From: Methylocystis sp. L43
GTDB taxonomy: Bacteria > Pseudomonadota > Alphaproteobacteria > Rhizobiales > Beijerinckiaceae
Reading direction: 5' to 3'
Assembly (NCBI RefSeq): GCF_015709525.1
Contig: NZ_JADNRA010000031.1
Span: 1 to 64,000 of the forward strand
Length of the DNA: 64,000 bases
Position 1 is the first letter of the stretch. Every line of letters begins with the position of its first letter. Positions 50,111 through 52,672 of this stretch are shown here, piece by piece. The notes beneath the pieces were generated by a model. It saw only the letters and a program-made list of their open reading frames with translations. It was not told where the DNA came from and ran no database searches. Both the position numbers and the translations under genes were made by a program.

Positions 50111-50666
50111 ATGTTCTCCTGAGAGCCCAGAGAGGGCGGCGCCGGCAAGGGTTAGCGTTGCAGATCGGCTTTCGGCATCGGACGTCCCCCGCGGCTAAAA
50201 CGCGAGGCTGGACGAAAAGTTCGCTAAGCGAACTGCCGGCGCGGCCCGATGTCGAAAACCAAAGCGAATGCCCCAGCTTGGTTACCGAGGCGGGGCCTAT
50301 CTACCAGCGGCGCGCCGCCGTCGCAAGCGCGCCGAAAAGAAAAGAGTCGACGCAGCCTTCGCAAAGCCATGATATTGCGGTGCAATAAGTTAACAATAGA
50401 CTGTTTTAATATAATAATCATATCGCGAAAAGGCACGCCTATTGGCGAATTTCTCGCTAGCGGAATCGCAGCTGCACGCATAGTCTGCGCCCTACTGCCA
50501 CGCTTCGGCGCGCCGCCAAACGTCAGCGGCGGGGCGCCGCCGCCCGGAGCAACATTGGCGCGCCGGGCCGCTTGGCCGAAGCCCAGTAGAACTTCGCGTT
50601 CGCCGTCTAGACGGCGAGAGCGTCGACTTCCCGTCGTTGCGATAGGGATATAAAGAGGAGAAAGAG
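50111..50666. other. 556-base intergenic region between rpsA and the bufferin operon
   Basis: Holds the divergent promoters of rpsA and the buf-like operon. The stretch around 50370-50425 is strikingly AT-rich for this genome and carries the best promoter match (entry at 50390). Open frames in the rest have no ribosome binding site or homology I recognise. A strong Shine-Dalgarno, AGAGGAG, ends the region at 50654-50660. Confidence 0.6.
50390..50418 (+). promoter_or_regulatory. Candidate sigma-70 promoter of the bufferin operon
   Basis: TTAACA (50390-50395) and AATAAT (50413-50418), 17 bases apart, each one mismatch from consensus. An overlapping TATAAT starts at 50410. A start here would give a ~240-base leader before the precursor gene. 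The AT-rich block could also serve rpsA on the other strand. Confidence 0.45.
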
Positions 50667-50897
50667 ATGAAGACGAATATTATTTCAGGTTCGGCTCTCG
50701 CCGCCGCCGCCGTCGCCCTTGCTTTGAGCGGCGCGTCGATTGCGCCCGCCCACGCGCATTCCGCGAAGTCGACCCATGCGAAGACGCATTGCGGCGCCAA
50801 GGGAACATGCCGCGGCATGGCCAAGTGCCACCACAAGGCGCAGTGTCACCACCACAAGGGCCGCTGCAACATGAAGAGCCGCTGCCACAGCAAGTAA
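50667..50897 (+). CDS. bufA: Bufferin-like RiPP precursor (His/Cys-rich, Sec signal)
   Basis: A 76-residue peptide. Residues 1-30 form a signal peptide ending SIAPAHA. The core is extremely basic and His-rich with six cysteines at 42, 48, 54, 60, 67 and 73, spaced 6-6-6-7-6 (for example CHHKAQCHHHKGRC). It is followed by MNIO (DUF692) and DUF2063 genes, the BufB/BufC pair that modifies cysteines of exported copper-binding bufferins. The EGKCG repeat of well-studied precursors is absent, so this is a distinct precursor type. A strong AGAGGAG lies six bases before ATG 50667. Confidence 0.82.
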   Translation: MKTNIISGSALAAAAVALALSGASIAPAHAHSAKSTHAKTHCGAKGTCRGMAKCHHKAQCHHHKGRCNMKSRCHSK

Positions 50898-50906
50898 TCG
50901 CCTTGC

Positions 50907-50935
50907 GCGGGGGCGGCTCCTACGGCCGTCCCCGC
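50907..50935 (+). terminator. Hairpin between precursor and bufB (possible attenuator)
   Basis: An 11-base stem with one G-T pair (50907-50917 with 50925-50935) and a 7-base loop, 9 bases after the precursor stop. There is no T-run. It could limit readthrough or stabilise the precursor mRNA so that more precursor than enzyme is made. Confidence 0.5.
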
Positions 50936-50987
50936 CACGCTGATGCGGCTCCGGCATGAGCGGCGATGCCTGAGAGGGGAACACGTC

Positions 50988-51833
50988 ATGGAAAAACCCG
51001 CGCCGCTTGGCTACGGCTTGGGTCTGCGGCCGATCTACTATGAAGAGATCCTGTCGTCGCGCCCGCCGATCGACTGGTTCGAAATCATTTCTGAAAACTA
51101 CATGCTCGCCGGCGGCCGGCCTCTGGCGATGTTGGAGCGGATACGCGCCGATTACCCCGTCGTCATGCATGGCGTCTCGATGTCGCTTGCGTCAACCGAC
51201 CCGCTCAACTTCGACTATTTGCGGCAGCTGAAGACGCTCGCCGAACGCGTCCAGCCGGCATGGGTTTCAGATCACATCGCTTGGACAGGCGTTCATGGCG
51301 TGACGCTCCACGATCTGCTGCCCATTCCCTACACGCGCGAATCGCTTGCGCATGTCGTCGAGCGCATTCAGCGGGTGCAGGACTTTCTCAAGCGCCGGCT
51401 TGTCGTTGAAAACGCCTCAACCTACGTGTCCTTCGTCGATTCGGAGATGAGCGAACACGAGTTCGTTCGCGAAATGGCCGAGCGCGCCGACTGCCTGTTG
51501 CTGCTCGACGTCAACAATGTTTTTGTTTCGAGCTTCAACCACGGCTTCGATCCCGTCGCCTTCATCGATGGCGTTCCGGCCGAGCGCGTCGTGCAATTTC
51601 ACATGGCGGGTCATACCAATAATGAGACGCATCGCGTGGACACACACGACCAGCCGGTCTGTGACGAGGTCTGGGCGCTCTACGAGCACGCGCGTCGGCG
51701 CTGCGGCGACGTCTCCGCCATGATTGAGCGCGACGACAATTATCCGCCACTTGCGGAGCTTCTCGACGAACTCCAGAATATGCGCGACATCGACGCCCGC
51801 ATCTCAAAAGAGCGAGCGCTCAGCGCGGCATGA
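50988..51833 (+). CDS. bufB: MNIO-family (DUF692) peptide-modifying oxidase, BufB-like
   Basis: A 281-residue TIM-barrel protein of DUF692, the multinuclear non-heme iron-dependent oxidases (MbnB, TglH, BufB), which rewrite cysteines in RiPP precursors. Conserved metal-site stretches: VVMHGVSMSLASTDPL, WVSDHIAWTG, LVVENASTYV, LLLLDVNNVFVSSFNHG, VVQFHMAGH and IERDDNYPPL. ATG 50988 follows GAGGGGAA. It overlaps bufC by ATGA. The presence of a signal-peptide precursor and DUF2063 partner fits BufB rather than MbnB. Confidence 0.92.
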   Translation: MEKPAPLGYGLGLRPIYYEEILSSRPPIDWFEIISENYMLAGGRPLAMLERIRADYPVVMHGVSMSLASTDPLNFDYLRQLKTLAERVQPAWVSDHIAWTGVHGVTLHDLLPIPYTRESLAHVVERIQRVQDFLKRRLVVENASTYVSFVDSEMSEHEFVREMAERADCLLLLDVNNVFVSSFNHGFDPVAFIDGVPAERVVQFHMAGHTNNETHRVDTHDQPVCDEVWALYEHARRRCGDVSAMIERDDNYPPLAELLDELQNMRDIDARISKERALSAA

Positions 51834-52672
51834 AGCTCGCAGATTTTCAGTCTCTGTTTCAGCAGCGTGTGCTGGCCGGCTCTGGAGAGGCGGACAAGCC
51901 TCTCCTGAAAAAATTGCGGCCGTCGCCGCGCGGCGCCGCGCCAGAGACGTTGCTCGACGTCTATCAGACCGGCTACCGCATACGGCTGGCCGACTTTGTT
52001 TCGCAGGATCACCCGGGGCTGCGCGCGATTCTCGGAGACGAGGCGTTTGACGCGCTGGTCGACGACTACATCGACCATTGTCCGTCGCGCGATCCGAACG
52101 CGCGCTGGTTTACGACCGGACTGCCGGACTTCATGCGCGAAAATGCGCGCTGGCGCGACGATGTTGCGGCCGCGTCCATGGCGCTGTTTGAGCGCGCCAT
52201 GGTCGACGCCTTCGACACGGCTGACGAAACGCCGTTGACGGTGCAGGCGCTGGCGGGCTTTGCGCCCGACGATTGGGCGCGGCTGGCCTTCGACTTCGAC
52301 CCGAGCCTCACGCTGCTCGAACTCGCCGCCGGCACGATCGAGGCTTACGGCGCGGCGATCAGCGAGGAGGCGCCGGCGAAAGTCGATAAGCCCGCGGCGG
52401 GCGATCACATCGAATATGCCGCCGTATGGCGCGTCGATCATGAATCCGCCTATCGCCAGCTCGAGCCCGACGAATATGTCGCGCTTTCCGAAGCGCGCGC
52501 CGGCCACGCCTTCGGCGACATTTGTCAGATGACCGCCTTTCAGCAGGCTGGCGAGATTGCGCCAGAGCGGCTGGCGCAATGTTTGTCGAGCTGGTTCGAG
52601 GACGGCATGATTATCGGCGTGCGCGTCCGCGAGGACGATGATCAGTCTTCGAACACGCCTTCAAGCGCGTAA
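51830..52672 (+). CDS. bufC: DUF2063 partner protein, BufC-like
   Basis: A 280-residue protein whose N-terminal half is DUF2063: FQSLFQQRVLAGSG, TLLDVYQTGYRIRLADFV, HPGLRAILGDEAFDALVDDY and WFTTGLPDFM. In the bufferin and Hvf systems this partner binds the precursor leader and presents it to the oxidase. The C-terminal half, with EYAAVWRVDHESAYRQLEPD, is the usual second domain. Despite its Pfam name no DNA-binding role is implied. It starts within the bufB stop; its last 31 bases overlap the convergent Fae-like gene. No DoxX-like bufD follows. Confidence 0.88.
   Translation: MKLADFQSLFQQRVLAGSGEADKPLLKKLRPSPRGAAPETLLDVYQTGYRIRLADFVSQDHPGLRAILGDEAFDALVDDYIDHCPSRDPNARWFTTGLPDFMRENARWRDDVAAASMALFERAMVDAFDTADETPLTVQALAGFAPDDWARLAFDFDPSLTLLELAAGTIEAYGAAISEEAPAKVDKPAAGDHIEYAAVWRVDHESAYRQLEPDEYVALSEARAGHAFGDICQMTAFQQAGEIAPERLAQCLSSWFEDGMIIGVRVREDDDQSSNTPSSA

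Follow-up and report, generated by a model that had tools for sequence, protein, structure and literature searches.

A histidine-rich, bufferin-like precursor and its Buf2-type maturase in Methylocystis: a candidate metal-binding peptide of a methanotroph

INTRODUCTION

Enzymes of the MNIO (DUF692) family that act with a DUF2063 partner mature several kinds of Cys-containing precursor, which the accessible part of PMC13097082 divides into those with DUF2282, those with Lys-Cys repeats, and those with Cys-Lys motifs. The same portion of that paper describes 5-thiooxazoles in several MNIO-DUF2063 products and copper binding by such products. Here we describe an operon of this kind in Methylocystis sp. 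L43, at positions 50667 to 52672 of a stretch of 64,000 nucleotides (contig NZ_JADNRA010000031.1, positions 1 to 64,000; hereafter the window), in which a His-rich precursor with six Cys residues, BufA, precedes an MNIO, BufB, and a DUF2063 protein, BufC. The host is a methanotroph of the Methylocystis type; in many methanotrophs, the choice of methane monooxygenase is set by how much copper is available.

Four described systems lie closest to this operon. Bufferin 2 (Buf2) precursors, the Cys-Lys captophorins modeled as BufA2 by NF050166 ("Buf_6/12Cys"), undergo a chemistry that is unsolved beyond a mass loss and an absorbance (PMC12452194). Bufferin 1 (Buf1), whose precursor carries DUF2282, binds copper, and preliminary data make its signal peptide part of what BufBC recognizes; bufferins have also been tied to other metals through MerC fusions and gold-induced operons (PMC12452194). 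In the oxazolin/fontiphorin class, the Lys-Cys captophorins, an MNIO and a DUF2063 protein make Cys-derived heterocycles on precursors marked by EGKCG, a motif of this class and not of bufferins 1 and 2 (PMC12452194). Methanobactin (MbnABC) is likewise an MNIO-made copper peptide, but its precursors lack a signal peptide, MbnC takes the place of DUF2063, the chemistry is of the oxazolone/thioamide kind, and the role is copper uptake (PMC12452194).

Beyond these systems, hundreds of small signal-bearing open reading frames (ORFs) with 1 to 18 Cys precede MNIO genes (PMC12452194), and BufA may be one of them, perhaps already present in Supplementary Table S2 of that paper. Our literature search, outside of which that table lay, found no paper naming the His-rich peptide; the literature on Methylocystis and DUF692 concerns methanobactin by title, and no paper joining MNIO and Methylocystis was found. 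In the available main text of a transcriptome of Methylosinus OB3b (PMC12811070), DUF692, DUF2282, and DUF2063 do not occur, and "bufferin" appears only inside "buffering."

RESULTS AND DISCUSSION

In the reading that we favor, with a probability of roughly 0.6, the product of the operon is a metal-binding peptide of Buf2 descent that an MNIO modifies and the Sec pathway exports. ORF reading and family profiles give the order bufA, bufB, bufC, all on the forward strand. The first gene, bufA (50667 to 50897), opens with an ATG that has AGAGGAG directly 5' of it and encodes 76 residues, MKTNIISGSALAAAAVALALSGASIAPAHAHSAKSTHAKTHCGAKGTCRGMAKCHHKAQCHHHKGRCNMKSRCHSK. The MNIO maturase gene bufB (50988 to 51833; 281 residues) is taken to start where its orthologs align, an alternative in-frame ATG lying at 50943, and its end shares the sequence ATGA (51830 to 51833) with the start of bufC (51830 to 52672), which encodes a DUF2063 partner of 280 residues (PME-type 1). 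BufB scores 370.2 bits on PF05114 (cutoff, 25) and 377.4 bits on the MNIO_BufB model NF050167 (cutoff, 310), against 82 bits on the MbnB model (cutoff, 325). BufC scores 62.8 bits on PF09836 (cutoff, 27.2) and only weakly, at 21.1 of the 142 bits needed, on the HvfC model NF050145. A sequence-only reading of this stretch had described a 76-residue peptide with six Cys spaced 6-6-6-7-6, followed by DUF692 and DUF2063 genes that overlap by ATGA, and our coordinates and profiles agree with it. We also find support for its proposal that a methanotroph carries an operon of the bufferin type whose His-rich precursor is atypical, such a precursor preceding orthologous bufB in most genomes of the genus that have this MNIO.

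By eye, residues 1 to 30 of BufA (50667 to 50756, forward strand) form a typical Sec signal pattern, with a guessed cleavage site after A-H-A30, and in alignment they resemble the BufA2 signal region. The remainder, residues 31 to 76, contains 10 His and no Asp or Glu. All six Cys, at positions 42, 48, 54, 60, 67, and 73, fall in a core (residues 42 to 76; 50790 to 50894, forward strand; CGAKGTCRGMAKCHHKAQCHHHKGRCNMKSRCHSK). As successive Cys are separated by 5, 5, 5, 6, and 5 residues, the spacing led us to reject a precursor family of the CxxxxC kind.

The operon resembles Buf2 in having a precursor of similar length with a signal-like N terminus and six Cys, the order bufA-bufB-bufC, a DUF2063 partner, an ERDD-type MNIO in the same clade, and a genomic locus that in four relatives is occupied by Buf2. 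The peptide itself is different. It scores 17.7 bits on NF050166, far below the cutoff of 60, in a weak match spanning residues 9 to 61; of 14 His-rich peptides only seven match this profile at all (best E value, 1.2e-5), and no His-rich precursor place is among the above-cutoff places listed. Cys spacing is 6-6-7-6-13/14 in eight BufA2 sequences, and alignment shows that the C-terminal Cys/GxGW segment of BufA2 is missing from BufA, in which no Cys is followed by Lys. From residue 31 onward, eight sequences of the BufA type (type W6, the six-Cys His-rich precursor) average 10.5 His and have no acidic residue, against 1.0 His and 4.5 acidic residues in eight BufA2 sequences. By profile, Cys arrangement, and Cys-Lys content, BufA thus falls outside Buf2, while the enzyme side of the operon, with its Buf2-group MNIO carrying Asp and its DUF2063 protein, falls inside. 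A plain Buf2 bufferin that has merely diverged, its chemistry, function, and count of modified Cys unchanged and its His incidental, would fit the nested MNIO, the operon order, the locus, and the weak profile match, but we consider it quite unlikely given the poor scores, the disappearance of both the Cys-Lys motifs and the C-terminal Cys with GxGW, and the invariance of eight His.

Buf1 shares the MNIO, the DUF2063 partner, and a precursor with a signal-like N terminus, and one such operon is present in the same genome, but the DUF2282 search that had been suggested for the peptide returned no match to PF10048 at E values up to 1, and the Buf1-type MNIOs compared are 38 to 49% identical to BufB and form a separate tree group. 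Unlike oxazolin/fontiphorin precursors, BufA lacks EGKCG and a 5-mer repeat, and Lys-Cys-type MNIOs have Phe at a selectivity site (accessible part of PMC13097082) where BufB has Asp.

Conservation argues that bufA is a real and constrained gene. Orthologs 75 to 99% identical over the whole length were found in 21 other genomes of the genus, each directly upstream of an orthologous bufB. Over the 22 W6 loci (21 distinct DNA sequences), the ratio of nonsynonymous to synonymous differences per site (pN/pS), from a simple Nei-Gojobori count summed over nonindependent pairs, is 0.197 overall, 0.137 for residues 1 to 30, and 0.228 for residues 31 to 76. Because of the whole-length orthologs, the position upstream of bufB, and this ratio, we conclude from sequence that bufA is not a chance ORF; the ratio also indicates that BufA is under purifying selection. 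All six Cys and eight His (31, 37, 41, 55, 56, 61, 62, and 74) are invariant in the 22 loci, although 12 of these 14 codons vary silently. Among the named records that have a W6 locus are Methylocystis silviterrae FS, M. rosea SV97, and M. suflitae NLS-7.

At the level of the genus, a close bufB (E value of 1e-60 or better, best match at least 74% identical) is present in 32 of 39 genomes, and maturases at the bufferin locus are 74 to 100% identical to that of the window. In 28 of the 32, bufB is immediately preceded by a His-rich precursor with 5 to 9 Cys. By our own matching of genomes to loci, W6 is the sole His-rich precursor in 20 of these, two have a 9-Cys and W6 pair, four have a 9-Cys precursor, and one each has an 8-Cys and a 5-Cys precursor. 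The sequence-only reading was to be abandoned if relatives had no conserved precursor upstream of orthologous bufBC, a concern that these 28 genomes remove. Among the seven genomes from which the locus is absent, five are 64 to 81% complete.

The maturases connect the operon to Buf2. In an MNIO tree of 82 rows, made by a quick search with the Shimodaira-Hasegawa-like approximate likelihood ratio test (SH-aLRT) as its only support and after dropping L061 (truncated, 164 residues) and L003 (a further MNIO of the host, on contig C24), a split at SH-aLRT 100 separates a group with eight Buf1 rows from a group of all 36 His-rich and 35 Buf2 rows. Several long branches occur, for the most part on the side of Buf1 and in remote Buf2 rows, and the named outgroup does not form one side of a branch, with two unlabeled rows falling inside. 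A single clade (100) unites the 27 His-rich MNIOs of the genus and is joined at 91 with four rows from loci with ordinary BufA2; the His-rich MNIOs of a second genus (g138), which may be Methylosinus, form a clade of nine (94) just outside the genus groups, joined at 88. The His-rich label costs two changes on this tree, so that one origin with a return and two origins are indistinguishable; because some loci have two precursors in tandem, a simple reading is that one of the pair was lost.

Locus and precursors tell a similar story. In the window, the operon is flanked upstream by an opposite-strand gene that we take to be rpsA, since its product has six S1 domains, and downstream by a convergent homolog of the formaldehyde-activating enzyme (fae; PF08714). 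In the stretches fetched for the four ordinary-BufA2 loci, G024 has both rpsA and fae, G033 has rpsA, and G034 and G007 have fae. Peptides of g138 read HxCxMEKGQCGGKxKCMTKKGVCKHH...C..C and variants, and the stretch QCGGKxxCMTKxGVCKH, with small variations, is common to them and to the 9-Cys peptides and resembles CKGKxDCMTPKNSCKG of BufA2. The 9-Cys peptides end, as W6 does, in CHHKxxCHHxKGxCNMKxxCHxK, a part of the W6 core, and so combine a BufA2-like stretch with the CHHK module. Since the MNIO is nested in the Buf2 clade and BufA2 occupies the same locus in relatives, we conclude from these comparisons that the operon descends from Buf2 bufferins and the peptide from BufA2. The MNIO tree, the synteny, and the mixed precursors led us to reject an independent origin outside the bufferins.

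This descent changes how the precursor is to be described. The sequence-only reading had called it noncanonical through its lack of EGKCG; because EGKCG marks the oxazolin/fontiphorin class (PMC12452194), its absence is no sign of a noncanonical bufferin, and we rejected it as a yardstick. The label survives on other grounds, namely the failed BufA2 profile and the lost Cys-Lys and Cys/GxGW motifs. A precursor unlike those studied gives way to one derived from BufA2, and "new type" is apt for a Buf2-derived variant rather than for a separate kind. Judged by sequence, BufA is best filed as a bufferin-like precursor, carried by methanotrophs of the Methylocystis type, that derives from Buf2, is rich in His, and lacks Cys-Lys.

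The ERDD motif of BufB (residues 247 to 250; 51726 to 51737, forward strand; our residue mapping) contains the catalytic-base Asp and the adjacent Asp250. According to the accessible part of PMC13097082, Lys-Cys MNIOs have Phe next to the catalytic base, on its C-terminal side, where Cys-Lys MNIOs have Asp, and in a model this Asp touches the substrate Lys; by our reading, this selectivity site would be the last letter of ERDD, Asp250 of BufB. ERDD is found in all 36 distinct MNIOs of His-rich loci and in 33 of 35 Buf2 rows, the other two having ERDA, and at this site Buf1-type rows have EWDN, EWDT, or EWDA (one row is truncated) and the solved Histophilus MNIO 3BWW has ERDF. Counted in chosen representatives rather than in all sequences, Lys follows 28 of 48 Cys in eight BufA2, 5 of 27 in three 9-Cys peptides, 5 of 18 in three g138 peptides, and 0 of 48 in eight W6 peptides, where His (28), Gly (8), Asn (8), or Arg (4) is found instead. 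In 22 of 22 W6 loci, Arg or His occupies the position after the second, third, fourth, and sixth Cys. An Asp reported to read Lys after Cys is thus retained in BufB, whereas four of the six Cys of BufA offer it Arg or His.

By analogy with studied bufferins (PMC12452194), BufC, acting on the signal peptide of BufA, probably keeps this precursor in the cytoplasm while BufB, an O2-using iron enzyme, would turn some BufA Cys into 5-thiooxazoles, at a loss of 4 Da each. Because Arg or His follows them in all 22 loci, Cys 48, 54, 60, and 73 are the best guess for modification, Arg or His after Cys then replacing the Cys-Lys read by Asp. The peptide would be exported via Sec and cut near Ala30, and thiooxazole thiolates together with neighboring His would bind periplasmic copper. 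A periplasmic copper-binding, ribosomally synthesized and posttranslationally modified peptide (RiPP), with some Cys converted to thiooxazoles and His adding ligands, is in our view the most likely product, and it may serve to buffer copper.

Several observations weigh against this reading. Ordinary BufA2, scoring 84 to 90 bits on NF050166, stands at the locus in four of the 32 genomes (G007, G024, G033, and G034), and two nearly complete genomes, G003 (99%) and G008 (98%), have no such locus, which incompleteness does not explain. Beside a full-length bufB, G011 (L029 / L105) has a 5-Cys precursor whose CHH module is lost and which looks like the 9-Cys type minus that module. No DoxX, sigma factor, or regulator gene was found between the flanking opposite-strand genes. 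No MNIO is known to accept Cys-His. AlphaFold2 modeled both BufA and a BufA2 control poorly (mean predicted local distance difference test scores of 51.0 and 56.2), and therefore no claim is made about a fold. FonBC, of the Lys-Cys class, failed to process substrates with a charged residue after Cys (accessible part of PMC13097082), and ordinary BufA2 proteins from other loci of the genome may be the sole reason why Asp250 persists; on both counts, the expectation of four modified Cys is a weak one. A copper-protective role is also not settled for every thiooxazole peptide, as in the available part of PMC12538549 the authors are hesitant about protection from copper by a Microbulbifer thiooxazole peptide.

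BufA could instead be an unmodified His/Cys-rich metal-binding peptide, with BufBC kept to modify ordinary BufA2 encoded elsewhere. In 18 of 22 W6 genomes (the exceptions being G004, G009, G014, and G020), a single MNIO is at least 60% identical to that of the window, yet these genomes carry one to three above-cutoff BufA2 genes elsewhere (one of the two in G016 has an internal stop). In the host itself, a BufA2 gene on contig C35 has no bufB match within the 5 kb fetched, and the retained Asp250 is suited to Cys-Lys, which W6 lacks. We nevertheless hold this alternative to be unlikely, because all 28 genomes of this kind have the His-rich precursor immediately before bufB, the six Cys are invariant in the 22 W6 loci, and the signal region is BufA2-like.

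A bolder extension of the favored reading is a fourth, "Cys-His" recognition class, in which a Cys-Lys-type maturase was repurposed for Cys-Arg/His in type II methanotrophs and makes a thiooxazole-plus-imidazole periplasmic copper reservoir for the particulate methane monooxygenase (pMMO). We regard it as tentative and lean against it; if it were true, the reservoir would have a role opposite to that of methanobactin in the same cell, and one BufBC pair would serve two unlike kinds of precursor. Whichever holds, the genus locus offers a natural series of precursors, from ordinary BufA2 and a 2-Cys companion to 9-Cys, 8-Cys, and 6-Cys His-rich forms, and with maturases so closely related, MNIO substrate choice becomes testable by swapping precursors.

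The distribution of the peptide invites a link to methane oxidation. A 14-row His-rich profile matches 56 of 397 genomes of the family at an E value of 0.001 or better, many of the matches being ordinary BufA2 caught mainly via the signal region, but above 45 bits, a line drawn after the scores were known, matches occur only in Methylocystis (g1) and g138. Nine g138 genomes lie above this line, one of the nine best matches having an internal stop, and the pMMO-positive g138 genome G332 is not among genomes with a profile match. PF02461 (subunit A of ammonia monooxygenase or pMMO) is present in 51 of the 397 genomes and 3 of 43 genera, g1, g138, and g136; g136 has no profile match above 45 bits, and three W6 genomes (G001, G016, and G022) have no PF02461 match. 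In wider samples, at an E value of 1e-8, the profile found one of 385 genomes of the class, the host itself, and two of 398 of the phylum, both from g1. These searches scored at most 14 candidates per genome, and some could be missed. As two related genera amount at best to one event, the link to methane oxidation is suggestive only.

This distribution also bears on the metal. A role with nickel, zinc, cobalt, mercury, or redox stress rather than copper would accord with the CHH repeats, which are also usual for nickel and zinc, and with the other metals to which some bufferins are linked by MerC fusions and gold-induced operons. We think it very unlikely, because bufferin 1 (PMC12452194) and related thiooxazole peptides (PMC13097082, in its accessible part) bind copper and because, within the family, only two genera have strong profile matches, both of them bearing pMMO and so having an unusual copper demand. 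BufA may thus help its host handle the copper on which methane oxidation depends, and should it store copper rather than remove it, RiPP chemistry would be linked to methane oxidation.

In the host genome (4.06 Mb, 35 contigs), this reshaped bufferin occurs alongside ordinary ones and a methanobactin, whose role is copper uptake. The four MNIO genes of this genome are that of the window, one on C15 in a Buf1 operon whose DUF2282 precursor scores 87.9 bits on PF10048, one on C24 adjoining a membrane protein with a Gly/Ser/Cys tail that is TIGR04222-like by appearance, and mbnB on C33. The methanobactin proteins score 456 bits for MbnB (cutoff, 325), 55.1 bits for MbnA on TIGR04071 (cutoff, 24), and 297 bits for MbnC (cutoff, 185). 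Ordinary BufA2 genes on C15 and C35 score 100.8 and 87.5 bits (cutoff, 60), and PF02461 is found twice.

Upstream of bufA, on the forward strand, a sigma-70-like promoter site (TTAACA-17 nt-AATAAT; 50390 to 50418) has 10 of 12 consensus matches. It is a consensus match only; two sites of this quality, one per strand, were found in 901 bases against 0.2 expected, and TTAACA is kept in 10 of 17 aligned loci of the window clade and different in the other seven. Upstream of it is a possible operator with no strand assigned, the palindrome TATTGC-N3-GCAATA (50373 to 50387), of which this is the sole perfect copy both in the window and in the host genome. Both arms are intact in 13 of the 17 aligned loci, and the other four have one mismatch. 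The looser TTGC-N3-GCAA occurs at this place in four of four window-clade loci and in one of nine other His-rich loci of the genus (L103, at a different place, near bufB); it occurs in none of four genus loci with ordinary BufA2 at rpsA-fae, nine g138 loci, or three further BufA2 loci. An operator common to bufferin loci was therefore rejected, as among the loci scanned only the window clade has the palindrome at that place.

Many genus loci contain another small gene. In all 14 genus loci scanned outside the window clade (L098 to L107, L125, and L137 to L139), the bufferin precursor is preceded by a second signal-bearing peptide, which has two or three Cys and in many cases a tail rich in Ala and Pro (EKHKCGGKNGCPA is one example); this peptide was not found in the seven window-clade and nine g138 loci scanned. 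The G033 copy has no family match above a cutoff, and the peptide is possibly another MNIO substrate.

Two further observations concern the host. On C33 (L004, 544 to 1377), a sigma-factor ORF has the methanobactin precursor fused in frame as its C-terminal end, an arrangement modeled by NCBIfam NF040705; the 30-residue end matches the last part of that model as well as TIGR04071. The ordinary BufA2 at 288611 to 288835 of C35 (L096), already mentioned for its lack of a nearby bufB match, resembles in sequence the BufA2 at the rpsA-fae locus of the four relatives, and for this reason it may be the BufA2 of that locus, relocated.

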